This document shows positions 5,650-33,846 of a DNA stretch of 40,963 nucleotides, piece by piece; the first letter of the stretch is position 1, and every line of letters begins with the position of its first letter. A program made the translations under genes and the position numbers. The notes beneath the pieces were generated by a model. It made no database searches, had not been told where the DNA came from, and worked only from the letters and a program-made list of their open reading frames with translations. This DNA is from an uncultured Clostridia bacterium (GTDB lineage: Bacteria > Bacillota > Clostridia > Christensenellales > Borkfalkiaceae): positions 1-40,963 of the forward strand of contig CALVLT010000019.1 in NCBI GenBank assembly GCA_944340905.1, given 5' to 3'.

Positions 5650-5717
5650 AAAAAACTCCCGATCGGATAATATCTTTTAATTAGGAAACGACATCGCGGC
5701 ATTCCTGCGGCAGACGC

Positions 5718-6695
5718 TCACGCGGGGAGGAACAGATAGACGTAGTACGCGGCGTAGCCCAGGAGGAACACGATGCCCGCCGCCCTGCCGAGGCGGTGCC
5801 CGTCAAACATGGCGAGCAGGTACAAGAGCAGCGCCGAGGCGAGCGCGACGAGCGCGTCGATCAGATTGTCCGTCAGGCGGAATTCCAGAGGGGCGACGAG
5901 CGACGAGATGCCCGCAATGAACAGGATGTTGAAGATGTTGCTGCCGATGATGTTCCCCACGGCAATGTCCGTCTGTTTCTTTGCCGCCGCCACGACGGAA
6001 GTGACCAGTTCGGGCAGGGAGGTGCCCACCGCCACGACGGTCAGCCCGATGACGCGCTCGGACATGCCTGCCGCGCGCGCCACGTATTTTGCTCCCTCCA
6101 CGAGCAGCTGACCGCCGCCCACGACCATACCAAGCCCGAGGACGGTGACAAGCACCAGGAACCATGTCCGCTGTTTGCACTGTGCATACCATATCCCCAG
6201 GCGGGAGCGGGGCGTCTTTTCCTCGGAAGGCTGCTGCTCCCCCTTGCGCGCGCCGCGCAGAAGAAAGACCATGTAGACGGCGAACACGGCAAGAAAGATC
6301 AGCCCGTCCCACCATTCGAGCGCGCCGCCCCAGACGCCGAGCACGACGAGCAGCAGGCTTGCGAGCAATAGCACGGGAATGTCCAGTACGAGCGAAACGC
6401 GGCGCACGGGCAGCTTGCAGATGAGCGCGGAAAAGCCGAGGATGAGCAGGATGTTGGCAATGTTGCTGCCCACAACGTTGCCGATGGAAAGATCGGCGGA
6501 GCCGGTCGCCGCAGACGTCACCGAGACGGCAAGTTCGGGCATGGAAGTGCCGAACGCAACGACGGTCAGCCCGATGACCAGGGGGGAAATGCGGCACTTG
6601 GCGGCGATGCCCGCCGCGCCGTCCACAAAAAAATCCGCCCCCTTGACGAGCAGAACAAGCCCGACAGCGATGAGAAATATCCAAAGATACAGCAT
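5718..6695 (-). CDS. CaCA-family cation exchanger (YrbG-like Na+/Ca2+ antiporter)
   Basis: A 325-residue membrane protein with the internal duplication of the calcium/cation antiporter superfamily. Alpha-1 repeat (about 42-85) contains GTSMPEL and GNVVGSNIANI; alpha-2 (about 217-260) contains GTSLPEL and GNIIGSNIFNI. The acidic and polar residues of these repeats bind the transported ions in known members. It likely exports Ca2+ (or another cation) against Na+ or H+ at the cytoplasmic membrane; the ion itself is not certain. A cytoplasmic loop (about 150-170) separates the halves. The ATG at 6695 is preceded by AAGAGGTG; a longer frame to 6812 lacks a ribosome binding site. Single gene. Confidence 0.88.
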   Translation of the reverse strand: MLYLWIFLIAVGLVLLVKGADFFVDGAAGIAAKCRISPLVIGLTVVAFGTSMPELAVSVTSAATGSADLSIGNVVGSNIANILLILGFSALICKLPVRRVSLVLDIPVLLLASLLLVVLGVWGGALEWWDGLIFLAVFAVYMVFLLRGARKGEQQPSEEKTPRSRLGIWYAQCKQRTWFLVLVTVLGLGMVVGGGQLLVEGAKYVARAAGMSERVIGLTVVAVGTSLPELVTSVVAAAKKQTDIAVGNIIGSNIFNILFIAGISSLVAPLEFRLTDNLIDALVALASALLLYLLAMFDGHRLGRAAGIVFLLGYAAYYVYLFLPA

Positions 6696-24125: not shown

Positions 24126-25001
24126 TCAGGCCCCGTCTGTCAACGATTCCGTGCGGCGCGTATCTTCCTCCGCGCGGTGATAATAGCGCAGATAGGACTG
24201 CCTGCAGTAGGCGCACACCTCCCGATCGGAGGCGGGCGGCGCGCCGAAATCGTAGCCGCCGTTGACCCGCCAGCCGTTGAGAATGCCCGTGCGCACGGCG
24301 TCCTTGGGGCAGCCGAAGGCGCACGCCATGCAGATGGCACAACTGCCGCCGAACACGGGCATGCCGCCCTCCATACGGATGTTGCCCTGCGGACAGCTGC
24401 GCGCGCACAGCCCGCAGCCGATGCACGCCTGCGTCACACGGAACCCCCTGCCGATCAGCGGGGCGGCGGGGTGCTCGATGCGGCAGACGGCGGAGACCGT
24501 TCTCCCCCACAGTCCCACGGCGGGAAGGGAACCTTCCCCCGCGGCGATGCACGCCGCGTCGCGCGCGATGCGCGCGAGCACCGCCCGCCACATGCGCGAC
24601 GCCATGCCGTCCGAATGGCGGAAGATGATGTTGTAGGGCATGACGTAGTGAAGATCGCCCGCCACGCGCCAGCCCTTTTTGCGCAGCATGCGCGCGGGCG
24701 CAAGAACTGCCGCATCGTTGAGGGAGAGCGGCTCGCCCGACGTGCGCAGAAGGTATGCGACGCCCCCGTCGGAAGCGGGGAGCGACTTCAGATAGCGAAG
24801 GACGGGCGCGGGCGCATTGAACCCGTGCACGGGAAAGGCGACGATAAGGCGGTCGGCGTCCGAAAGATCGGGCGCGGGACGGTCGGCGCGCAGCAGTTCG
24901 ATGCGCGCATCGCCGCCCTGTGCGCGGAACGCCTCCGCCGCCGCCTCGCACACCATCTTTGTGCTTCCGGTGCCCGTAAAACAGACAAATACCGCGTTCA
25001 T
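24126..25001 (-). CDS. EFR1-type flavodoxin-ferredoxin fusion protein
   Basis: A 291-residue redox protein. An N-terminal flavodoxin-like domain (about 1-150) begins AVFVCFTGTGSTKM, the FMN phosphate-binding loop. It is followed by a bacterial ferredoxin domain with two [4Fe-4S] sites: C193, C196, C199, C203 and C221, C224, C227, C231. NCBI calls this architecture EFR1 family ferrodoxin; the physiological partner is unknown. The ATG at 25001 overlaps the stop of the SDR gene upstream (ATGA), so the two are coupled and probably act together in one reductive pathway. Confidence 0.9.
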   Translation of the reverse strand: MNAVFVCFTGTGSTKMVCEAAAEAFRAQGGDARIELLRADRPAPDLSDADRLIVAFPVHGFNAPAPVLRYLKSLPASDGGVAYLLRTSGEPLSLNDAAVLAPARMLRKKGWRVAGDLHYVMPYNIIFRHSDGMASRMWRAVLARIARDAACIAAGEGSLPAVGLWGRTVSAVCRIEHPAAPLIGRGFRVTQACIGCGLCARSCPQGNIRMEGGMPVFGGSCAICMACAFGCPKDAVRTGILNGWRVNGGYDFGAPPASDREVCAYCRQSYLRYYHRAEEDTRRTESLTDGA

Positions 25002-26542
25002 GCTCCCTCCGTATGCCGCATGGACGGCCTGCCGTCCGCGTCCAAAAAGTAACACACGTCCTCGTCTTTCGCGTGCGTATCATACCACACCTGCGCGTAA
25101 TAGGGACTGTGCTTTGCCTGGCGGTCAAAGTCCCACGGCATGGGCGCGCAGTGCGGGCACCAGTGCCCCGCCCCCATCACCGTATAGGGCGACGCCGTAA
25201 AGACGTGCCCGTCGTGGCAGCGCCACTGCGCGGGCGCATAGGCGCCATCGTATGTCTCCGACAAAAAGGTTCCGCCGCGGAACTGCGCCGCCGAAACGCA
25301 GTCGGCGCGCGTCCACGCCTCGGGCGGCTTGGTATCGTCAAACCCGTGCGCGAGCAGCCTTCCCTCCGCCGCCGCGCGCCCCTCGTCGCGCAGTGCGTCG
25401 TAGTCGCCGAAATCCCCCTTCGCCATGAGCTTTACCTCCTCCCACGTGTCGGGAATGCGCCGCGCGGCCTCTTCCCCGCCGTAAAAGGCGAACACGCGCG
25501 CCGCGTCGCCCTCTTTGCGCCAGCGCATGGGCGCATTGGGATGGTCGAGCAGGCGGCGGAAGAAGGTGCCCGTGATGAGCGCGGGCGGCAGGAGCGATGC
25601 AAGGCGGAAGGCGCGGTGACGGCGGGCGATGTCCGCCCAGACCTCCTCCACGCCGTCGCGCTGATAGCCGAACAGGCCCTGCAGAACGTCCGCGTCCGCC
25701 AGCCATACGCCGTGGAAATTGCGCGCCGCCAGCCATGCGGGGCGGAAGAACTCCTCGGGACTGCCGCCCATGACGGCGAACCCGACGCGGAAGGTATCGT
25801 ACCCCGTCTGCCGTCCGTGTCTGCCGCCGCCGATGTTGTACACCCTGTTCCAGAACGCGCCCAGCTCCCCCGCCCCGTCGCGCTCGAGGATGCGGCGGAT
25901 GAGATAGCCCGAATCGCGCGCACTCACCCACTCGAGCGGGGAATTGAGGCAGGTGTGGAACATCAGCCCGTCGCTCATGTTGCTCTCGAGTATCTTCGGG
26001 TGCAGCATCGCCGTCTGGCGCAGGATCGTCCAATTCTCCAGCCCCGCTTCCAGCACGCTTCGCTCCGCCTGCAGCTTGTGCACGGAGTACATGTCGAAGG
26101 GGCTGATGAGCAGCGGATCGCCCACGCGGGCGAAGGGGTGTTCCTGGTTGCGGCAGCCGTAGAGGGCGATGGAGGAGATATGCACGAATTTTGCCTGTTT
26201 CGGCATGGCCTTCACGGCGCCTGCAAGCGCCGCCGCCCCGCGGGCGTTGCATGCCTCGCTTGCGGCAGGGTCGGCGTCCGAACGGGGCGGAATGACCGCC
26301 GCCATGTTGACAACGTAATCGCTCCCCTCCACCAGGTCCGCGCACGCGCGCGCATCCGCAACGTCTCCCCAGACCATCCGCACGCGGCTGCCGTATTCGC
26401 GCTGCAGCCCCGCCGCGAGCTGCCTGTTTTTCTTTCTGGGGGTGAGCAGCACGCACACCTGCCGCACGGCGGAAAGCGCAAGCGTCTGCCGGAGCGCCTC
26501 CGCGCCCATGTTGCCGCTCACGCCTGTCATGGCGATCTTCAT
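24998..26542 (-). CDS. Extended SDR (NAD-dependent epimerase/dehydratase) with C-terminal zinc-finger-like extension
   Basis: A 514-residue protein. The N-terminal about 300 residues are an extended short-chain dehydrogenase: NAD-binding TGVSGNMG at 6-13, a downstream AAVIPPRSDA, and the catalytic pair Tyr152-Lys156 in MYSVHK. Typical members act on nucleotide sugars or similar substrates. The remaining about 200 residues are not part of the SDR fold. They include W440, C442, H446, C462 and C465 in the pattern WRCxxGH...WCPHC, a treble-clef-like zinc site. GGAGAG precedes the ATG at 26542. It is the first gene of the SDR-EFR1-cysK operon; its substrate is unknown. Confidence 0.85.
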   Translation of the reverse strand: MKIAMTGVSGNMGAEALRQTLALSAVRQVCVLLTPRKKNRQLAAGLQREYGSRVRMVWGDVADARACADLVEGSDYVVNMAAVIPPRSDADPAASEACNARGAAALAGAVKAMPKQAKFVHISSIALYGCRNQEHPFARVGDPLLISPFDMYSVHKLQAERSVLEAGLENWTILRQTAMLHPKILESNMSDGLMFHTCLNSPLEWVSARDSGYLIRRILERDGAGELGAFWNRVYNIGGGRHGRQTGYDTFRVGFAVMGGSPEEFFRPAWLAARNFHGVWLADADVLQGLFGYQRDGVEEVWADIARRHRAFRLASLLPPALITGTFFRRLLDHPNAPMRWRKEGDAARVFAFYGGEEAARRIPDTWEEVKLMAKGDFGDYDALRDEGRAAAEGRLLAHGFDDTKPPEAWTRADCVSAAQFRGGTFLSETYDGAYAPAQWRCHDGHVFTASPYTVMGAGHWCPHCAPMPWDFDRQAKHSPYYAQVWYDTHAKDEDVCYFLDADGRPSMRHTEGA

Positions 26543-26565
26543 TTGTAAACTCTCCGAATATTTTT

Positions 26566-26796
26566 CTATAGCGTAAGGGAGCAATACGAATCCGATCAAA
26601 AGCGGCACGCTCATACTTTGTCTGAGACACACATCTTGCCGCTTTTGATTGCGCAGCACTTTTGGCGAGCACAGTTTCGTGTCAGATTTTTGCGAAGATG
26701 ACGCCGCAATACCCAAGTATTGCAAGGAAGATGAGCGAAAAGATGCCGAAAGAGCGCCGCCAAAAGCGTGGTTCGTATTTTTCCCTTATGCTATAG
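26566..26796. repeat. 231-bp element with 27-28 bp terminal inverted repeats (MITE-like)
   Basis: The ends, 26566-26593 and 26770-26796, are imperfect inverted repeats both reading CTATAGC(G/A)TAAGGGA inward, about 24 of 27 positions matching. Nested inside are GATCAAAAGCGGCA / TGCCGCTTTTGATT (about 26594-26607 and 26637-26650) and GCAATAC/GTATTGC (26706-26712 and 26717-26723). There is no transposase reading frame. The element occupies most of the leader between the SDR promoter and its ATG. Confidence 0.65.
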
Positions 26797-26823
26797 TATA
26801 CTCTTTTTATGACGAATTGTCAA
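26795..26823 (-). promoter_or_regulatory. Promoter of the SDR-EFR1-cysK operon
   Basis: TTGACA and TATACT with a 17-base spacer on the minus strand. The predicted transcript starts near 26788 and therefore includes almost the whole inverted-repeat element as a leader of about 245 bases. Confidence 0.7.
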
Positions 26824-26887
26824 TCGGTAATTTTTTTCTATGACATATTTTCCCTTTGCACCATACGGCATTCTGCCGTCCCTGAAA

Positions 26888-26922
26888 AATCCCGCCCGCC
26901 GCAAACTTGCGGCGGGCGGTGT
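26888..26922 (-). terminator. Terminator of the 59-residue gene
   Basis: CCGCCCGCCGC and GCGGCGGGCGG with a short loop. On the minus strand the stem is followed by GATTTTTC. Confidence 0.75.
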
Positions 26923-26923
26923 T

Positions 26924-27103
26924 TTATATTTCCTGCACCTTTAACACAAACTGTTGTCCGTTCGGGAGCCGACAAAGCAGTCCGCCCTCCCCCCGGGAAC
27001 ATTCTCCGACAAAGTACTCCTGCACGAGCGGCAGCAGCGATTCCAGAATATCCTCTGCCGTGACCGCTTTTTCGACCGATGTCGTCCGTTCGCTTTCCGA
27101 CAT
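26924..27103 (-). CDS. Unknown 59-residue protein
   Basis: Not recognised. The protein is acidic in its first half (TSVEKAVTAEDILESLLPLVQEYF) and ends GGLLCRLPNGQQFVLKVQEI, a short beta-rich tail with no transmembrane segment. AGAGGAGG lies before the ATG at 27103. A promoter and terminator bracket it, which supports a real gene. It is transcribed away from the double-HTH regulator; the two share an intergenic region with operator-like repeats, so it is probably controlled by that regulator. Confidence 0.7.
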   Translation of the reverse strand: MSESERTTSVEKAVTAEDILESLLPLVQEYFVGECSRGEGGLLCRLPNGQQFVLKVQEI

Positions 27104-27140
27104 GTTGTTCCTCCTCTTTTGTTTCAGATTTTCTGCCTCG

Positions 27141-27175
27141 TATAATATTATACCCCTGTGTCTGACAAAAATCAA
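27141..27175 (-). promoter_or_regulatory. Promoter of the 59-residue gene, with palindromic -10
   Basis: On the minus strand TTGATT (27170-27175) and TATAAT (27147-27152) are 17 bases apart. The -10 lies in TATAATATTATA (27141-27152), which also presents TATAAT on the plus strand, so initiation in both directions is possible. Confidence 0.55.
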
Positions 27176-27243
27176 ATTGTTTTTGTCGAACCGTAGGATA
27201 ATTTTTTGTCGAAGGAGGTCTATTTTATGGAGATTTTGTCGAA
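27164..27243. promoter_or_regulatory. Operator-like repeats before the double-HTH gene
   Basis: The inverted repeat GACAAAAA-N8-TTTTTGTC is at 27164-27187. The decamer TTTTGTCGAA occurs three times in direct orientation, at 27181-27190, 27204-27213 and 27234-27243; the last is inside the coding sequence. These are likely binding sites for the adjacent regulator. Confidence 0.5.
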
Positions 27244-27667
27244 ACTGTCCGGGCGGCTTGCGGAACTGATGAAGGAATCGGACTTGAGCACTCCGCTCCT
27301 GGCACGCCAGACGGGCATCGACCAATCGGTGATCGCGCGCATTCTGCACGCCGAACGCATGCCCTCGGCAAAGACGCTCTCCGCCCTTGCAGACTTCTTC
27401 GCCTGTTCGACTGACTATCTGCTCGGCAGAAAGGACCTCCCCGACGAGCGCACGTTCCTGCCGCGCCCGCCCTTTTGCGAGCGGCTGGGCGAGCTGCTCG
27501 CGCACTTTCAGGTCACGAAATACCGCCTGGAACAGGAAACGGGCCTGACGGAAGAGACCGTCAACCGCTGGCAGAAGGGCGCTTATGAGCCGAGCGTGGA
27601 GAGCCTGATCCGTCTTGCCGACCATTTCGGCTGCTCGGTCGACTTTATCCTCGGCCGCGAACGCTGA
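27227..27667 (+). CDS. Transcriptional regulator with two tandem XRE-type HTH domains
   Basis: A 146-residue protein made of two Cro/C1-type helix-turn-helix domains in a row, about 8-62 (STPLLARQTGIDQSVIARIL) and about 83-140 (TKYRLEQETGLTEETVNRWQ). Each ends in the same cap, CSTDYLLGRKD and CSVDFILGRER, so the gene arose by internal duplication. No ligand or dimerisation domain is attached. The ATG at 27227 has AAGGAGG upstream. It faces the 59-residue gene and precedes a second HTH gene and the RiPP locus; control of these neighbours is an inference. Confidence 0.85.
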   Translation: MEILSKLSGRLAELMKESDLSTPLLARQTGIDQSVIARILHAERMPSAKTLSALADFFACSTDYLLGRKDLPDERTFLPRPPFCERLGELLAHFQVTKYRLEQETGLTEETVNRWQKGAYEPSVESLIRLADHFGCSVDFILGRER

Positions 27668-27683
27668 CGCCCCGCCCGAAATC

Positions 27684-27760
27684 ATATCATGTATACATTA
27701 TATAATGCAAATGTCTATTTGTCAAGCGTCTGCATGCCCTATAATATATCATGTGTACAT
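27684..27760. promoter_or_regulatory. Paired operator-like repeats and promoter of the small HTH gene
   Basis: ATATCATGTATACAT (27684-27698) and ATATCATGTGTACAT (27746-27760) are direct copies with a 62-base offset, close to six helical turns. Each has a palindromic core. TATAAT at 27740-27745 touches the second copy, with TTGTCA 15 bases before it, so binding there would block transcription. Confidence 0.5.
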
Positions 27761-27780
27761 AAGATATGGAGGGACACGCC

Positions 27781-27987
27781 ATGCACCTTCGGATCGACGA
27801 AATCCTGCAAGAAAAGGGAAAGAGCAAGTACTGGCTGTACATGCAGCTGGGGTTGAGCTATCAGAACTTCAACCGCATCGTCAACAACCAGACGAGCGGC
27901 ATCAAGTTTGACAACCTGAAGGCTCTGTGCGACATTCTGGAGTGCACCCCGAACGATCTGTTCCGCGAATACCACAACAAATCATAA
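27781..27987 (+). CDS. Small XRE-family HTH regulator
   Basis: A 68-residue Cro/C1-type DNA-binding protein consisting of a single HTH domain: LRIDEILQEKGKSKYWLYMQ, then SYQNFNRIVNNQTSGIKFDNLKALC and a closing CTPNDLFREY. Proteins of this size often repress their own gene. GGAGGG lies nine bases before the ATG at 27781. It lies between the double-HTH gene and the RiPP locus and ends in its own terminator, so it is separately transcribed. Confidence 0.88.
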   Translation: MHLRIDEILQEKGKSKYWLYMQLGLSYQNFNRIVNNQTSGIKFDNLKALCDILECTPNDLFREYHNKS

Positions 27988-27995
27988 CCCCTTTT

Positions 27996-28031
27996 GCCGC
28001 CCGCGCACGCTGTGCGCGGGCGGCGTCTTTT
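27996..28031 (+). terminator. Terminator after the small HTH gene
   Basis: GCCGCCCGCGCAC and its complement (27996-28008, 28012-28024) enclose GCT and are followed by GTCTTTTC. Confidence 0.8.
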
Positions 28032-28094
28032 CTGCCTGATTACAAAAAATTCGGTAATTTCCAAAAAAAAATTGTTTTTTCACGCGAAAAATAT

Positions 28095-28134
28095 TTGCAT
28101 TTCAAAATAAATTGTGTTATTCTATTCATATAAT
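28095..28134 (+). promoter_or_regulatory. AT-rich promoter region of the RiPP operon
   Basis: TTGCAT (28095-28100) and TATTCT (28118-28123) are 17 bases apart, and a perfect TATAAT lies at 28129-28134 without a good -35. The region from 28045 to 28140 is far more AT-rich than its surroundings. Confidence 0.4.
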
Positions 28135-28156
28135 TTAGCAATCGGGGGACGGATGC

Positions 28157-29272
28157 GTGGAAACAGGACGATCGGCACAGACTGCCGACAATACGCGGAC
28201 GATCTCGCTGACGGTGACGCAGCGCTGCAACCTTGCCTGCATCTACTGCTACGAGCACAACAAATCCGCCGCGGACATGACCTTTGAGACGGCAAAGCGC
28301 ATCCTCGATGCCGAACTGCGCACAGGCGCCCCCAAAGAAAACACCTATCTGGAATTTTTCGGCGGGGAACCTTTCCTCAACTTTGCGCTCATGCGCGAAG
28401 TCTACGACTATGTGCGCTCCTTCTACCGCGGCAAACTGCGCTTTCACACCTGCACCAACGGCACGCTCGTGCACGGCGAGGTGCAGGCATGGCTGAAGGC
28501 GCACCCCGATTTTTCGGTGGGGCTGTCCGCCGACGGCACAAAATACGCGCACGACCTCAACCGCTCGGGCAGCTTCGACCAAATCGACTTCGATTTCTTT
28601 TTGCAAAACTACGCACATCAGCCCGTCAAGATGACGGTGTCCGCCCTCTCCCTGCCCTGTCTTGCCGAGAGCGTCATCTATCTTTCGGAGAAGGGCTTTG
28701 ACGTCTCGTGCAACCTTGCCTACGGCATCGACTGGTCGGCGGAAGAGAACAAGGCCGTTCTGGAGGAACAGCTCGAGGCGCTCATCGCTTACTACCTTGA
28801 ACGGCCGCAGGCAAAGCGCTGCAAGCTGCTCGATTTTTCTATCGGCGTCCTCGCCCGCCCCGCGGCGGAGGGCGGCACGGTGCGCAAATACTGCGGAACG
28901 GGCACGTCGATGGTATGCTATTCGGTGGAGGGCGAGGCGTACCCCTGCCAATTCTTCACCCCCCTCTCGGCGGGAGAGCGGGCGCTCCCCTTAAGCGAGG
29001 CGCATTTCACGCGCGACATTGACCGCGCACTGCTGCCCGAGGACTGCCGCAGCTGCTACTTTCTGCGCATCTGCCCGCGCTGCATGGGCAGCAACTATCT
29101 GGCGACGGGGGATCTTTACCGCCCCGACGGCAGCTACTGCGCGCTGCACAAGCTCATCTTCAAGGCGAACGCCAAGCTCAAGGCGCTCGAATGGGAACGG
29201 GGCATGCTCGCCCTCTCCCCCGACGAGGAACAGGCGTTGCTGCGCAGCATCGCAACCATTCAGACACTTTGA
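28157..29272 (+). CDS. Radical SAM/SPASM peptide maturase (CXXX-repeat peptide type)
   Basis: A 371-residue radical SAM enzyme. The cluster-binding CNLACIYC (C24, C28, C31) binds the SAM-cleaving [4Fe-4S] cluster and GGEP follows at about 69-72. The C-terminal SPASM part (about 255-345) has the pattern CxxCx5CxxC in DCRSCYFLRICPRCMGSNY, with further Cys in YCGTG, YPCQFF and YCALHK, fitting auxiliary clusters. Such enzymes install thioether or carbon crosslinks in ribosomal peptides. The next gene encodes a matching Cys-repeat peptide 14 bases downstream. The start is GTG at 28157 with GGGGGAC upstream. From memory, NCBI has a family 'radical SAM peptide maturase, CXXX-repeat target'; membership needs an HMM search. 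Confidence 0.88.
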   Translation: METGRSAQTADNTRTISLTVTQRCNLACIYCYEHNKSAADMTFETAKRILDAELRTGAPKENTYLEFFGGEPFLNFALMREVYDYVRSFYRGKLRFHTCTNGTLVHGEVQAWLKAHPDFSVGLSADGTKYAHDLNRSGSFDQIDFDFFLQNYAHQPVKMTVSALSLPCLAESVIYLSEKGFDVSCNLAYGIDWSAEENKAVLEEQLEALIAYYLERPQAKRCKLLDFSIGVLARPAAEGGTVRKYCGTGTSMVCYSVEGEAYPCQFFTPLSAGERALPLSEAHFTRDIDRALLPEDCRSCYFLRICPRCMGSNYLATGDLYRPDGSYCALHKLIFKANAKLKALEWERGMLALSPDEEQALLRSIATIQTL

Positions 29273-29286
29273 TCGAGGAGGAAGAT

Positions 29287-29496
29287 ATGTTTCAACTGAC
29301 GGAAGAACTCATTGCCAAAATCAGGGCGCGCATCACGGGCGAGGCGCTCGCGCCTGCGGGCGTGCTGGAGCGCTATGACTGCAGCGGCGCCTGCTCGAGC
29401 GACTGCTACCTTTCCTGCGGCGAATCGTGCACCTACAGCTGCGACGGCACCTGCGACGGCTCCAGCTCCGGCTCGGGCGGGGGCGGCGGTTGGTAA
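29287..29496 (+). CDS. RiPP precursor peptide with seven-fold CXXX repeat
   Basis: A 69-residue peptide. Residues 1-29 form a leader-like helix (MFQLTEELIAKIRARITGEA). The core has seven cysteines at 32, 36, 40, 44, 48, 52 and 56, exactly every fourth residue, separated by small or polar residues (SGA, SSD, YLS, GES, TYS, DGT). A Ser/Gly tail follows and ends GGGGGW. It directly follows the radical SAM gene and has GAGGAAG before its ATG. The pattern implies processing by the upstream enzyme into a multiply crosslinked product, but no peptidase or exporter is adjacent. This type of spacing also suits metal binding, the main alternative. Confidence 0.88.
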   Translation: MFQLTEELIAKIRARITGEALAPAGVLERYDCSGACSSDCYLSCGESCTYSCDGTCDGSSSGSGGGGGW

Positions 29497-30234
29497 ATGC
29501 TTGTCGACTGGCGGGCGCTGACGGACGGCGCGCTCCCCCTCGACTACTACGCCGTGACCGTGCGCGGCGGCGCCATCGCCGCGCAAAAGGTCTACTACCG
29601 GACGGACGCGGCGCGGACGGGGCTGCTCCTGTTCGACGGACTGTGCACGGCGGGGCTGCTGCGCCCCTTTTCCTTCGGCAGGGACGACGCGGCAAACGAG
29701 AAGTTCGATTTTGAACTGGTGCGCGAGTTCCGCGCGGTCTGCCATGCCGTCGCGCGGGAGTACCCCTTTTTCGACGCGGCGCGCGTGATCGCGCTGGACG
29801 CCCTGATGCAGCGCCTTGGCGCGGAAACGGGAAAAATCGCGGGGGTAAAAATGCAGGGCGGCGGCGTGAAGAGCGTGTGCCTGTACCTGCGCACCGCCCT
29901 GCCCTGCAGCGACAAACGCGCCGCCGACGCGGCGCAGCAGGCTGCCGCGTTCGCGCGGGTGCAGGCGCCCTCCTGCGATCTGCCCTCCGGCAAGGACGCG
30001 CTGCTCTATCTCGTGGCGCTCGACTTTGCACAGGCGGCGTGCAAACTCAAACTCTATTATAAATTTCTGGAAACGGCTGCCGCGGCACAGCTCGTTCCCC
30101 TGCTTGCGCGCAGCGGCTGTGCGGACATTGCCTCGCAGCTCTTGCAGGCGGGAGGCTTTTTGGAGGGCTTTCAGGTCGCCCTGTCCGAAGGGGGCGAGAG
30201 CTTCAACTTTTACCTGAAACCGCCCGCCGCATGA
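29497..30234 (+). CDS. Unknown RiPP-locus protein
   Basis: Not recognised. A 245-residue soluble protein whose ATG touches the precursor stop codon (TAAATG), so it is translationally coupled to the peptide. Three similar strand-like motifs recur: VKSVCLYLR (about 128-136), CKLKLYYKF (about 181-189) and SFNFYLKP (about 234-241). The repeating basic-x-Tyr pattern is reminiscent of the beta strands of ABBA-fold prenyltransferases, which also occur in cyanobactin clusters; this is a weak resemblance only. It has no transmembrane segment. It could be a second modifying enzyme, a leader-binding protein or an immunity factor. Confidence 0.8.
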   Translation: MLVDWRALTDGALPLDYYAVTVRGGAIAAQKVYYRTDAARTGLLLFDGLCTAGLLRPFSFGRDDAANEKFDFELVREFRAVCHAVAREYPFFDAARVIALDALMQRLGAETGKIAGVKMQGGGVKSVCLYLRTALPCSDKRAADAAQQAAAFARVQAPSCDLPSGKDALLYLVALDFAQAACKLKLYYKFLETAAAAQLVPLLARSGCADIASQLLQAGGFLEGFQVALSEGGESFNFYLKPPAA

Positions 30235-30259
30235 AAAAACTTGTTGGGAGGTAGGATAT

Positions 30260-30442
30260 ATGGGCTGTCTTTTGCGTGTTCTCTGGTGGATCTTCGTCGG
30301 CGTTCTGGCGTTCTGCGTGATCGGGGGGATCGTCTGTTCGATCACGGGCGAGACCGAACTGGCGCGCACCTGCTGGATCGTCTCCGCCGTCATGTTCGGC
30401 CTCGTGCTCATCGGCGCTTTCATCAAAAACAAATTTGACTGA
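30260..30442 (+). CDS. Small two-helix membrane protein of the RiPP operon
   Basis: A 60-residue protein with transmembrane helices at about 5-27 and 37-55, joined by a short ITGETELART loop and ending KNKFD. GGGAGG precedes the ATG. It is the last gene before the operon terminator, 25 bases after the unknown 245-residue gene. Small membrane proteins in such loci sometimes give immunity or help export; nothing in this sequence decides the role. Confidence 0.75.
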   Translation: MGCLLRVLWWIFVGVLAFCVIGGIVCSITGETELARTCWIVSAVMFGLVLIGAFIKNKFD

Positions 30443-30468
30443 ACCATGCACCGCAATGCGGGCAACGG

Positions 30469-30496
30469 GCGGCCGAGCTTTCGGCCGCTTTTTTTT
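30469..30496 (+). terminator. Terminator of the RiPP operon
   Basis: GCGGCCGA, loop GCTT, TCGGCCGC, then eight T. Confidence 0.9.
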
Positions 30497-30499
30497 GGA

Positions 30500-30830
30500 C
30501 GTTTCTCTTGCCTGTAAGACGACGTAAGGGGGATTCTGCGTCGCGGCAAGGCGCATTTTGCAGGTATTTGGCTGCGCCAAATACCTTGCCTGAAACGCCT
30601 GCCGCTCCTTTTCACAAAAAAGCTTTGCGAGCAAATCTTTTTTGTGAGTGCTGTGGATTTACATTTTTGCTACGCCCCCTCTGAATGACGCAAGCGAGCC
30701 AGAAGAACCGTCATTCAGAGGAGCGGCGCAGCCGCGACGAAGGAATCCCCTCGCAAGGAACAGCAAGCGCAATCCTCCCGTCACTTCGTGCCCCCCTTAA
30801 GACAAGTATTAAGGGGAGGCGGGAACCCGC
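30500..30830. repeat. Intergenic palindromic repeat cluster, copy 3
   Basis: No gene is seen. Palindromes include GGTATTTGG/CCAAATACC (about 30562-30582) and CACAAAAAAG/CTTTTTTGTG (about 30615-30647). These are followed by the shared GTCATTC module (about 30711), GTCACTTCGTG (about 30780) and CCCCCCTTAA/TTAAGGGG (about 30792-30817). Confidence 0.6.
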
Positions 30831-30836
30831 GCGTTT

Positions 30837-31520
30837 TTATATCTCCTCCTGCTGGCGGCGCTGCATGCGCATCCAGTTGAAAAAGCCGTACAGGTCGTTC
30901 ACAAAAAACACGACAAAGCAGATGACGACGGATAGATAAGACAGATCCTGCGCCGCCGCCAGCGACCAGAGCACGATGAGCACGACGTCGTTGGCGGCAT
31001 AGCCGAGCGCATAGAAGGGGCTGCGCCGCGCGGTGAGGTAGACGGCGACAAAGCTCGTCGTCACCGAAATGGTGCTCGGGATGAGGTTTGCGGTGTTCAG
31101 CGCCCGCAAAATGAAGTAAAAGGCTGCCGTCACGGCAGCGGCGAGCAGTGCCATGAGCAGGTACTCGCGCGCACGCAGGCGGTTGACTTTGACCTCCGCT
31201 CGCCTGCCCGCATAGGGATGGCGCAGCCACACGATGAGTGCCCAGACCGCCATGGGCGCCGTCATGCCGACATAGGTGATCATCTCGCCGTAATAGGCAC
31301 TCTCCCACGAGATGATGCCGTACAGCGCGGCAAAGACGATGATGAGCACCTGTCCCGCGGGATTGCCCTTGGCGCAGAAGATGAGGGACATCACCCCGAC
31401 GAGCGAGGCGGCGAGGGTGAGATAATTCATCCGATCCCAGATGCAGAACGCGGCGACGATCAGGACAAGGGAGCCAAGCCAGAGCGCAAGCTCTCCCTTG
31501 GTGAAATAAGCGTGTTTCAT
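30837..31520 (-). CDS. pnuC: PnuC-family nicotinamide riboside transporter
   Basis: A 227-residue membrane protein with about seven helices. The PnuC/SWEET-like pattern is visible: YGIISWESAYYGEMITYVGMTAPMAVWALIVWLRHPY near residues 68-104, and NDVVLIVLWSLAAAQDLSYLSVVICFVVFFVNDLYGFFNWMRM at the C-terminal end. Members facilitate uptake of nicotinamide riboside for NAD synthesis. The ATG at 31520 fits the family start (HAYFTKGELALW); only a weak AGGACGAAG lies upstream. It lies downstream of tex, separated by a terminator-like hairpin, so it is probably transcribed on its own or by read-through. Confidence 0.9.
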   Translation of the reverse strand: MKHAYFTKGELALWLGSLVLIVAAFCIWDRMNYLTLAASLVGVMSLIFCAKGNPAGQVLIIVFAALYGIISWESAYYGEMITYVGMTAPMAVWALIVWLRHPYAGRRAEVKVNRLRAREYLLMALLAAAVTAAFYFILRALNTANLIPSTISVTTSFVAVYLTARRSPFYALGYAANDVVLIVLWSLAAAQDLSYLSVVICFVVFFVNDLYGFFNWMRMQRRQQEEI

Positions 31521-31555
31521 GTAATACTTCGTCCTATATTTTGATATACGTACAT

Positions 31556-31616
31556 AAAAAAGCGTCCGCAACCCATTGCCTGCTAAGACCTGACGGCAAT
31601 GGCACGAACGCTTTTT
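31556..31616 (-). terminator. Bipartite hairpin between tex and pnuC
   Basis: Outer arms AAAAAAGCGT/ACGCTTTTT and inner arms CCATTGCC/GGCAATGG flank an asymmetric internal loop; the apical loop is 14 bases. Both outer ends are A/T runs, so it can terminate on either strand. It probably ends tex transcription, but it is more elaborate than the other terminators in the window. Confidence 0.65.
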
Positions 31617-31656
31617 GCGTTTCTCTACCCGGTGGCAGTATTTGGTTGTAAGCGCG

Positions 31657-33846
31657 CTATCTGCGCTTTCCCTCCCGCTTGGCGGCGGGGTTCTTCATGG
31701 TGAGCGAGATGCGCTTTTTGCCCTCGTCCACCTCCTTCACCCAGACGGTGACGACATCGCCCACCGAGAGCACCTCGGACGGGTGACGGATGAAGCGGTC
31801 GCAGATCTGCGAGATGTGCACGAGGCCGTCCTGATGCACGCCGATGTCCACGAACGCGCCGAAATCGATGACGTTGCGCACCGTGCCCTTGAGTTCCATG
31901 CCCGGCTTTAAGTCCTTGATCTCCATCACGTCCGTGCGCAGGATGGGCGCGGGCAGTTCGTCGCGGGGATCGCGCCCCGGCTTTAAGAGTTCCTGCGCGA
32001 CGTCGCGCAGCGTCGGCACGCCCACGCCGCATGCCGCCGCCATCTTCTCCTCGCCGTACGCCCTGATGCGGTTTTTCAGCTCGGAAAGCCTGCCCGCGCG
32101 CACGTCCTCCTCGGTGTAGCCGCACAGCTCGAGCAGTTTTTCCGCCGCCCCGTAGCTCTCGGGGTGCACGGCGGTGTTGTCGAGGATCTCCTCGCTCTCG
32201 GGCACGCGCAGAAATCCCGCGCACTGTTCGAACGCCTTGGCGCCCAGCTTGGGCACCTTCAACAGCTGCTGCCGCGACGTAAAGCTGCCGTTTTCCTCGC
32301 GGTACTTGACGACGTTCGCCGCCGTACCCGCATTCAGCCCTGACACGCGCGCCAGAAGGGGCGCGGACGCCGTGTTCACATCGACGCCCACCGCATTCAC
32401 GCAGTCCTCCACCACGCCGTCCAGCGCCTCGGTGAGCCGCTTTTCGGGCATGTCGTGCTGGTACTGCCCCACGCCGATGGACTTGGGGTCGATCTTGACC
32501 AGTTCGGCGAGCGGATCCTGCAGCCGCCTTGCGATGGAGACGGCGCTGCGCAGATTGACGTCGAAATCGGGAAATTCCGCCGCCGCCAGCGGGGAGGCGG
32601 AATACACCGACGCGCCCGCCTCGTTGACGATGGCGTAGGAGACGCCCGCGTTCGCACCCAGCCCCGCGATGAGTTCGACGGTCATCGCCTCCGTCTCGCG
32701 GCTCGCCGTGCCGTTGCCGATGGCAATGTGCTTTACGCCGTCCTTTCTGATGAGCGCCGTAAGCTTTTCAATGCAGTCGCGCTTTTGCTTTTCGCCGTGC
32801 GTGGGATAGACGACGGTGGTGTCGAGCACCTTGCCCGTGCCGTCCACGACGGCGACCTTGCAGCCCATGCGATAGCCCGGGTCCAGCCCCATCGTGACGA
32901 ACCCCTTGACGGGGGGCTGCATCAGGAGCGGCTTTAAGTTGAGCGCAAACTGTCCGATGGCGCCCTCGCTCGCCGTCTCGGTGAGGGCGGCACGCACCTC
33001 GCGCTCCATCGAGGGAGCGATCAGGCGGTCGTAGGCGTCCGCGGCGGCGTTCTCCACAAAGGCGGTGGAGGCGCACTTCTTCTTCAGCACGCGGCGGTAT
33101 ACGCCCGCGAGCGCCGCGTCGCGGCTGAGCACGACGGCGACTTTCAGGACGCCCTCCTTTTCGCCGCGGTTGACGGCGAGCACCTGGTGGCCCTGGATCT
33201 GGTTGACGGGCGCGGTGAAGGCGTAATAGTTGCGGTAGACGGTATCGGCGGGGTTCTTTTCCGCCGCGACGGACACGATGTCCGCCCACTCGTTATAGAG
33301 CGCGCGCAGGTCCTTTCTGACGTCCGCATCGTCCGAGATGGTCTCCGCCACGATGTCCGCCGCGCCCGCGAGCGCCTCTTCCACGGAGGCGACGCCCTTT
33401 TCCTCGTCCACATATTCCTTGGCGGCCTCTTCGGGAACGGGGCAGTCGGGCTGCTGTGCGTACAGCAGCTCGGCGAGCGGGGCAAGCCCCTTTTCGCGTG
33501 CGACGGTCGCGCGCGTGCGCCGCTTCTGCTTGTAGGGGCGGTAGATGTCCTCGACCTCGGCAAGCGTCTTTGCCTCGTCAACGGCGAGCGCCAGCTCGGG
33601 CGTGAGCTTGCCCTGATTTTCAATGGAATTTTTGACCTCCTGGCGGCGCGCCTCGAGGTTCCTCAGATATGTAAGGCGGTCGGCAAGGTTGCGGATGGTC
33701 TGATCGTCCATCGCGCCGTGCATCTCCTTGCGGTAGCGCGCAATGAAGGGAACGGTGTTCCCCTCATCCAGCAGCGTGACGACGTTCTCCACATAGTCCT
33801 TGCGCTGCCCGAGTTCTTCCGAAAGTATTTCGGTGATCGTCTGCAT
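31657..33846 (-). CDS. tex: Tex-family S1 RNA-binding transcription accessory protein
   Basis: A 729-residue protein. Domains in order: Tex N-terminal helical region (about 1-200), YqgF/RNase H-like domain (about 320-450, GLDPGYRMGCKVAVVDG), helix-hairpin-helix pair (about 490-560, VNTASAPLLARVSGLNAGTAANVV), and a C-terminal S1 domain (about 648-718, ELKGTVRNVIDFGAFVDIG). Tex homologues bind RNA and RNA polymerase and affect transcript elongation and termination. The ATG at 33846 has GGAGAG upstream; the longer frame runs into the promoter. Transcribed from its own consensus promoter. Confidence 0.95.
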   Translation of the reverse strand: MQTITEILSEELGQRKDYVENVVTLLDEGNTVPFIARYRKEMHGAMDDQTIRNLADRLTYLRNLEARRQEVKNSIENQGKLTPELALAVDEAKTLAEVEDIYRPYKQKRRTRATVAREKGLAPLAELLYAQQPDCPVPEEAAKEYVDEEKGVASVEEALAGAADIVAETISDDADVRKDLRALYNEWADIVSVAAEKNPADTVYRNYYAFTAPVNQIQGHQVLAVNRGEKEGVLKVAVVLSRDAALAGVYRRVLKKKCASTAFVENAAADAYDRLIAPSMEREVRAALTETASEGAIGQFALNLKPLLMQPPVKGFVTMGLDPGYRMGCKVAVVDGTGKVLDTTVVYPTHGEKQKRDCIEKLTALIRKDGVKHIAIGNGTASRETEAMTVELIAGLGANAGVSYAIVNEAGASVYSASPLAAAEFPDFDVNLRSAVSIARRLQDPLAELVKIDPKSIGVGQYQHDMPEKRLTEALDGVVEDCVNAVGVDVNTASAPLLARVSGLNAGTAANVVKYREENGSFTSRQQLLKVPKLGAKAFEQCAGFLRVPESEEILDNTAVHPESYGAAEKLLELCGYTEEDVRAGRLSELKNRIRAYGEEKMAAACGVGVPTLRDVAQELLKPGRDPRDELPAPILRTDVMEIKDLKPGMELKGTVRNVIDFGAFVDIGVHQDGLVHISQICDRFIRHPSEVLSVGDVVTVWVKEVDEGKKRISLTMKNPAAKREGKRR

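Follow-up and report, generated by a model that had tools for sequence, protein, structure and literature searches.

The stretch of DNA analysed here (hereafter the window) comprises the 40,963 nucleotides of contig CALVLT010000019.1 from an uncultured Clostridia bacterium of the Borkfalkiaceae (assembly GCA_944340905.1). Between positions 28,157 and 30,442 it harbours an operon of four genes, all on the forward strand, which code in this order for a radical S-adenosylmethionine (SAM)/SPASM enzyme, a 69-residue Cys-rich peptide, a 245-residue protein and a 60-residue peptide. The original prediction, made from the sequence of the window, had described it as a locus for a ribosomally synthesized and post-translationally modified peptide (RiPP). 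Its components are as follows:

28157–29272, + strand: putative radical SAM/SPASM peptide maturase, 371 residues, GTG start
29287–29496, + strand: putative precursor peptide, 69 residues, with a leader of ~31 residues, seven Cys at pitch 4 (32–56), a Ser/Gly tail and Trp69
29491–29493, + strand: codon of the C-terminal Trp69, proposed prenyl acceptor
29497–30234, + strand: ABBA-fold prenyltransferase-like protein, 245 residues, as predicted with AlphaFold and Foldseek
30260–30442, + strand: hydrophobic peptide, 60 residues, the last gene ahead of a terminator-like hairpin

The ATG of the 245-residue protein gene abuts the TAA of the peptide gene, with no gap. As originally described, the 69-residue peptide follows the radical SAM enzyme and has an unbroken array: its coordinates and translation place Cys residues exactly at positions 32, 36, 40, 44, 48, 52 and 56. 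Its only Trp is the C-terminal residue 69 (...GGGGGW). Random placement of seven Cys in 69 residues would produce a perfect period-4 run with a probability of ~4e-8. Comparison with the related locus L005 yielded a ratio of non-synonymous to synonymous substitution rates of 0.15 for the peptide gene, indicating purifying selection.

Peptides with 3 to 12 Cys residues in register adjoin the enzyme, before or after it, in 19 of the 24 loci of the enzyme family, the criterion being at least three Cys at pitch 4 beside the enzyme. The search for them used a pattern of five Cys on either strand up to 3 kb away, while at ten loci it required at least 4 Cys on the + strand no more than 1.5 kb away; ~4 kb per side was covered for L102, and just 1.5 kb of flank for several loci. 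Across 18 family peptides, 93 of the 109 Cys-Cys steps equal 4; 10 of these peptides have their first Cys at residue 32, and the longest runs comprise 10 and 12 Cys. The spacers favour the pattern x-G-(S/T/G/N), with Gly in the middle position in 49 of 93 cases and Ser, Thr, Gly or Asn ahead of the next Cys in 64 of 93. Because Gly is so frequent at the middle position, the earlier proposal that i,i+4 links would be stacked on one face of a helix appears doubtful. A leader of the form MFxLxxEL..KI......LaPA is conserved among the nearer members. With this conserved leader, a variable core and an adjoining putative modifying enzyme, the locus has the predicted make-up of a RiPP locus, and the conserved enzyme-peptide pairing bears out that part of the original prediction.

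The peptide of the window scores under the cut-offs of the NCBIfam models for such repeats, with 12.4 bits for the CXXX repeat peptide model TIGR04114 (cut-off 20) and 15 bits for a second CXXX-repeat target model (cut-off 50). Two of the eight relatives scanned pass the former, namely L008 (23.3 bits) and L013 (25.4 bits). In Odoribacter, a peptide of L016 (positions 5681–5926) carries two copies of a C-x4-C-x3-C-x3-C block, which suggests a duplicated core unit. At L102/L170 (genome G898), a protein-kinase-like frame overlaps the end of the family enzyme, and no Cx3 peptide was found within ~4 kb.

The enzyme harbours a CxxxCxxC motif (C24/C28/C31) and matches the Radical_SAM Pfam profile with 40.4 bits. 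Eight further Cys residues are invariant in a five-row alignment, in which the C-terminal pattern C246-x12-G-x4-C264, C297-x2-C300-x5-C306-x2-C309 and C328 is conserved throughout; by its spacing, we take it to be a SPASM pattern. With the radical SAM motif and C-terminal Cys residues suited to auxiliary clusters, the protein is predicted to be a radical SAM/SPASM enzyme, as first proposed. Its best sequence match in the PDB is 5wgg (CteB, a ranthipeptide maturase). The radical SAM domain of the window enzyme begins near residue 13, and the match in 5wgg near residue 94, so that the former lacks the N-terminal extension of CteB, in which the leader-binding domain resides.

Among the NCBIfam models, the PapB model NF047865 (cut-off 340 bits) came out best for the window enzyme, with 146.6 bits; a higher score on it (277.8 bits) is reached by the SCIFF-type enzyme that the same genome encodes. 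The nif11-type maturase model (129 bits, cut-off 519), the CXXX-repeat maturase model TIGR04115 (123.2 bits, cut-off 350) and the SCIFF maturase model TIGR03974 (90.6 bits, cut-off 425) were not passed either. The original prediction had pointed to a CXXX-repeat family of maturases; this search does not support membership of it, and we rejected a classification of the window enzyme, far under both cut-offs, as a CXXX-repeat or PapB maturase. None of eight family genomes passed the TIGR04115 cut-off, and ten further family enzymes (that of L020 being partial) were all under the PapB and CXXX cut-offs. The sources of these ten are labelled Clostridia, Pumilibacter, Anaerolineae, Thermodesulfovibrionales, Odoribacter, Bacteroidales, Prevotellaceae, Methanosarcina, Aminicenantes and Alistipes. 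Family members thus carry the labels of several bacterial phyla and of one archaeon, which may err, as most of the records are metagenome bins.

A tree containing no confirmed PapB or TIGR04115 member gives 100/100 support to the separation of the 24 family rows from seven rows of the SCIFF type. The two groups also differ in a Cys spacing, CX2CX5CX2C in 20 of the 24 family rows (the exceptions being L016, L017, L018 and the interrupted L020) versus CX2CX5CX3C in all seven SCIFF-type rows. By its sequence, the window enzyme belongs to an unnamed clade. Before counting, copies of one locus were merged (L001, L089; L096; L088, L012; L095; and later copies), L103 and L104 were excluded from the family for their weak scores, and L022–L087 were taken as SCIFF-type or other by identity rather than individually (at most 30%, except for L040 with 46% across a short terminal segment).

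The window enzyme is likely to form thioethers, as its closest relatives by sequence do. An alternative is a radical SAM RiPP without thioethers, in which another change is made on the repeats, e.g. C-C bonds or epimerisation, and the Cys residues remain free or form disulfides. The enzyme lies outside the named thioether families, and a PapB-type link from Cys to Asp at i+4 cannot be the general rule, because the array position i+4 from each Cys is mostly another Cys and because the window core after Cys32 offers four acidic residues (D39, E46, D53 and D57) for seven Cys. Spacing alone excludes little, however, as PapB accepts Cys-Xn-Asp with n from 0 to 6 (PMC9413430). In the cores, moreover, no other residue is as strictly positioned as Cys, as expressed by the 4-residue steps. 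We regard modification without thioethers as rather unlikely.

The original prediction had remarked on the presence of an accessory 245-residue protein, which is indeed there; it had missed the prenyltransferase-like fold of this protein and its candidate Trp target. Searches of the protein against Pfam (E up to 1), NCBIfam (E up to 10) and PDB sequences gave nothing credible, and three of its homologues matched no prenyltransferase family in NCBIfam or Pfam (E up to 10). AlphaFold models were obtained for the window protein (pLDDT 88.4) and for its L090 homologue (pLDDT 91.3), which are 26% identical to each other, and both contain ten strands in bb-aa repeats. In Foldseek comparisons with the PDB, the best 50 of 772 matches of the former and the best 50 of 728 matches of the latter (totals at E up to 10) are all prenyltransferases, with best E values of 8.5e-6 and 1.1e-5, respectively. 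The matches listed include FamD1, AmbP1, AmbP3, EpzP, TleC, CymD, DMATS1, FgaPT2 and CdpNPT, as well as the CL190 Orf2 enzyme, KgpF, CloQ, PirF and FunA; CymD and DMATS1 are Trp enzymes. These prenyltransferases share the ABBA fold.

Invariant residues of the 245-residue family alternate on the even strands: Y33; K69 and D71; C128 and Y130; K183, K185 and Y187; N237, Y239 and K241. Two motifs, K183-x-K185-x-Y187 and N237-x-Y239-x-K241, are invariant, the conservation of Y239 and K241 being established on 5 rows as the L005 sequence is cut short. This arrangement of Lys and Tyr may resemble the diphosphate-binding pattern of the ABBA fold, in which basic and Tyr residues line the lumen. On the basis of the models, the 245-residue protein looks like a prenyltransferase-like, ABBA-fold barrel of ten strands. 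Its gene adjoins the peptide gene in 6 loci of 4 lineages, including the window; the homologues lie 3' of the peptide gene in L005, L008, L090, L092/L099 and L093, with 81% identity to the window protein for L005 and 24–26% for the others. Weak matches in G559 (L100; E 5.6e-4) and L053 were dropped as unrelated frames.

What the putative prenyltransferase might act on is suggested by the peptides. All six peptides encoded beside a 245-residue protein gene, which have 5 to 10 Cys in register, contain exactly one core Trp, and in five of them it is C-terminal. Only 2 of 12 peptides without such a gene have a core Trp, located at the C-terminus in L013 and inside the array in L091. A leader Trp (L007) was not counted as core; the peptide of L019, kept outside the 18-peptide statistics, has no Trp, and its inclusion would make the latter count 2 of 13. 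The association has a p value of 0.0015, or 0.015 after dereplication (4 of 4 vs 2 of 10), both of them post hoc as it was noticed after seeing the data. We consider the C-terminal Trp69 to be the likely target of the 245-residue protein. The prenyl group could instead be placed on Cys, of which the core has many, or on Tyr, which it also contains, and cyanobactin prenyltransferases modify several residue types (PMC12715784). The single core Trp in every linked peptide argues against this alternative, which we hold to be rather improbable.

The genes are also linked in their distribution. In the order to which the window belongs, the radical SAM family (E up to 1e-50) was found in 8 of 396 genomes and the 245-residue family (E up to 1e-4) in 4, all of which are among those 8, an overlap with a chance probability of 7e-8. 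In addition, two of the four lineages with the 245-residue protein gene have in the operon a gene for a type-1 isopentenyl-diphosphate (IPP) isomerase-like protein, which in G348 separates the radical SAM gene from the peptide gene and in G161 is located 3' of the 245-residue protein gene, overlapping its end. The two genes are:

L172, 4339–4896 and L173, 3323–3922: type-1 IPP isomerase-like genes in the operons of two relatives

Type-1 isomerases (E up to 1e-15) are rare, G161 being one of just 4 genomes with such a gene among the 238 sampled from the order. A comparison of the lineages with the prenyltransferase-like gene (2 of 4 with an isomerase) and the other genomes (3 of 237) gives a p value of 0.002, which is rough, as it mixes lineages and genomes and the association was noticed after the fact. 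No family fits the two proteins better than type-1 isomerase (E 5e-33 and 1.6e-25). Both kinds of linkage support prenyl transfer by the 245-residue protein.

The 245-residue protein might alternatively be an ABBA-like barrel that is no prenyltransferase, e.g. one that binds the leader as a partner of the radical SAM enzyme or serves the latter as a scaffold. It matches no prenyltransferase family by sequence, and a partner could be needed because the enzyme has no CteB-type extension. Nevertheless, 245-residue homologues are found in only 6 of the 24 family loci, so most members seem independent of one; the IPP isomerase genes of two operons are simply explained by prenyl transfer, and the protein retains conserved Lys and Tyr residues on alternate strands. 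A barrel without prenyl transfer appears improbable.

Our preferred reading, which we judge fairly probable, is that of a RiPP operon whose peptide is modified twice, on Cys by the radical SAM enzyme and on Trp by prenylation. In a first step, the radical SAM/SPASM enzyme would recognise the short leader and cross-link the Cys residues in register, through thioethers, to carbon atoms of spacer residues close by, in the manner of PapB and SCIFF maturases. The ABBA-barrel protein would then move a dimethylallyl or longer prenyl group onto the indole of the single core Trp, Trp69 in the window. Since the genome of the window has no type-1 isomerase match, the prenyl donor would presumably be supplied by general isoprenoid metabolism. 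Finally, our guess is that an unlinked protease removes the leader, giving a lipidated, cross-linked peptide. There is perhaps an even chance that such operons represent a new class of RiPPs in Clostridia, with radical-SAM cross-linked Cys ladders of modular length and a prenyl anchor installed by an ABBA enzyme on a core Trp. In this class, the Trp would usually be the C-terminal residue, and some operons would include an IPP isomerase of their own for the donor.

Several observations weigh against the double modification. The original prediction held that homologous loci lacking the peptide gene would speak against its RiPP reading: 19 of the 24 have one, and in the other five (L014, L017, L020, L021 and L102) no Cx3 peptide was seen in the flank searched. 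L014 and L017 contain other small Cys-rich open reading frames, L020 is interrupted, and L021 and L102 showed no Cx3 array in the flank searched. In the NCBIfam scan, the window enzyme reaches the cut-off of none of the named maturase families listed. The TM-scores of the Foldseek matches are modest (0.30–0.62, mostly ~0.5), and the two AlphaFold models are not fully independent, as both alignments hold the same six proteins, reordered. Regarding the acceptor, the Trp statistics are post hoc, the Trp of L093 stands inside the array (CSWTC) rather than at the C-terminus, and no 245-residue homologue was found in the genomes of L013 and L091 despite their core Trp. As to the donor, the isomerase-like proteins of G348 and G161 (114.3 and 89.9; 97.5 and 73.8 bits) all fall below the cut-offs of NF002995 (127 bits) and TIGR02150 (105.8 bits), the missing match in the genome of the window concerns an assembly that is 84% complete, and G034, without a 245-residue protein gene, has a weak, unlinked isomerase match (29 bits).

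An unmodified, metal-binding Cys-rich peptide beside an enzyme that has another substrate is a very improbable reading: a dense Cys array can bind metal, and no exporter or peptidase was recognised among the neighbours scanned, but the pairing of enzyme and peptide across several phyla, the leader conserved in nearer members and the varying repeat number (4 to 12 Cys) form the pattern of a RiPP precursor, and prenyltransferase-like and isomerase genes are linked to it.

The system combines traits of several known ones. PapA/PapB, a ranthipeptide system, provides the best NCBIfam model for the enzyme, yet at 147 against 340 bits, and PapB uses an Asp partner where the array of the window mostly has Cys; the accessible text on PapA/PapB mentions no prenyltransferase. 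Like the latter, the CXXX-repeat system of NCBIfam (TIGR04115, with targets TIGR04114, TIGR04117 and TIGR04118) couples a radical SAM enzyme with a Cxxx-repeat peptide, and it recognises the peptides of relatives L008 and L013, whereas the peptide and enzyme of the window remain under its cut-offs. SCIFF (CteA/CteB) includes the best solved relative, 5wgg, and the SCIFF-like core encoded at L003 likewise has C-x3-C steps; SCIFF maturases nonetheless form a separate clade with a distinct Cys spacing, and the window enzyme is without a CteB-like extension.

As for the second modification, structure comparison indicates that the 245-residue protein has the barrel fold in common with ABBA prenyltransferases (KgpF, PirF, AmbP1, AmbP3, FamD1 and CymD), although it has no sequence similarity to them detectable with hidden Markov models (HMMs), and its partner in the window system is a radical SAM enzyme. 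The fold of cyanobactin prenyltransferases is described as ABBA (PMC13290415). PalQ, of a Paenibacillus RiPP, prenylates a C-terminal Trp, preferably one with Gly ahead of it, to be compared with the ...GGGGGW end of the window peptide; GW and GGW are more favourable motifs (PMC13290415 and PMC10853753). PalQ is a member of the isoprene synthase superfamily, not ABBA, and the portions available of these sources mention no radical SAM partner. MppC is a leader-dependent Trp geranyltransferase acting on a thioether-bridged lanthipeptide (PMC12715784); the thioethers of the latter come from the lanthionine synthetase MppM, in place of which the window has a radical SAM enzyme.

Cx3-repeat targets of radical SAM enzymes are already known in NCBIfam. 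Our searches of open-licence literature, subscription papers not being covered, found no prenylated radical-SAM peptide and, in titles and abstract starts and also by NCBIfam accessions, no paper on the window system. If our reading holds, radical SAM modification and peptide prenylation would be joined on one peptide by a system of <2.3 kb. It would offer a prenyltransferase family that escapes HMM searches and may act selectively on a C-terminal Trp, together with a maturase whose substrates are regular enough for the number and direction of links to be probed rung by rung.

The surroundings of the operon comprise the following features:

27766–27987: helix-turn-helix (HTH) gene directly upstream of the operon
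27995–28025, + strand: terminator-like hairpin separating the upstream HTH gene from the operon
30467–30490, + strand: terminator-like hairpin 3' of the last gene

The two hairpins flanking the operon are only suggestive of terminators, as 8 such sites were observed on both strands of 27650–30700 vs 4.1 expected in shuffles. Conserved co-occurrence of all four genes had been proposed as a check of the locus: it holds for enzyme and peptide in most family loci and for the 245-residue protein in six, and the 60-residue hydrophobic peptide showed no convincing homologue across 183 loci, many with short flanks. We can only guess that the latter has a role in immunity or anchoring.

Seven neighbouring genes were scanned, which code for a PLP-dependent enzyme, a ferredoxin-domain protein, a nicotinamide mononucleotide (NMN) transporter, Tex, a HAD hydrolase and two HTH proteins. 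In agreement with the original prediction, the scan recognised neither an exporter nor a peptidase domain in these seven, the gene at ~25000–26600 being outside the scan; the sole transporter among them is of the NMN type and on the opposite strand. No known structured RNA reached the gathering threshold in 25000–33000, and repeats in 27700–30600 were limited to weak families. A phage origin was rejected, the closest viral relative by E value being just 27% identical, as was a plasmid origin, the 245-residue protein being without a plasmid match.

Two exact copies of ATATCATGTRTACAT (27684–27698 and 27746–27760), with none expected by chance, are located 5' of the HTH gene 27766–27987, on either side of promoter-like hexamers. 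They probably constitute an operator for autoregulation of this gene; ATATCATGTRTACAT has no copy between the HTH gene and the operon, or in the other fetched loci save duplicates of the window locus. On the minus strand, positions 27697–27725 match the sigma-70 consensus TTGACA-17-TATAAT at 12 of 12 positions, between two HTH genes and antisense to the first.

In G068, the peptide-enzyme pair is followed by genes (L175, 5597–7473) whose products, an ABC transporter ATPase and an ABC-2 permease, might form an exporter. This arrangement is not conserved, since L011, a close relative of L175, has a different ABC-type gene at the same place, as read by eye. A second radical SAM/Cx3-peptide pair, L002, was identified on contig C9 of the genome of the window (enzyme 1504–2598, peptide 2654–2833). 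Its enzyme is 50% identical to that of the window, its 59-residue peptide has a CC doublet in the array, and no 245-residue homologue adjoins it. The same genome encodes a SCIFF-like peptide and its maturase on contig C39 (L003), so that three related radical SAM peptide systems coexist in one small genome.

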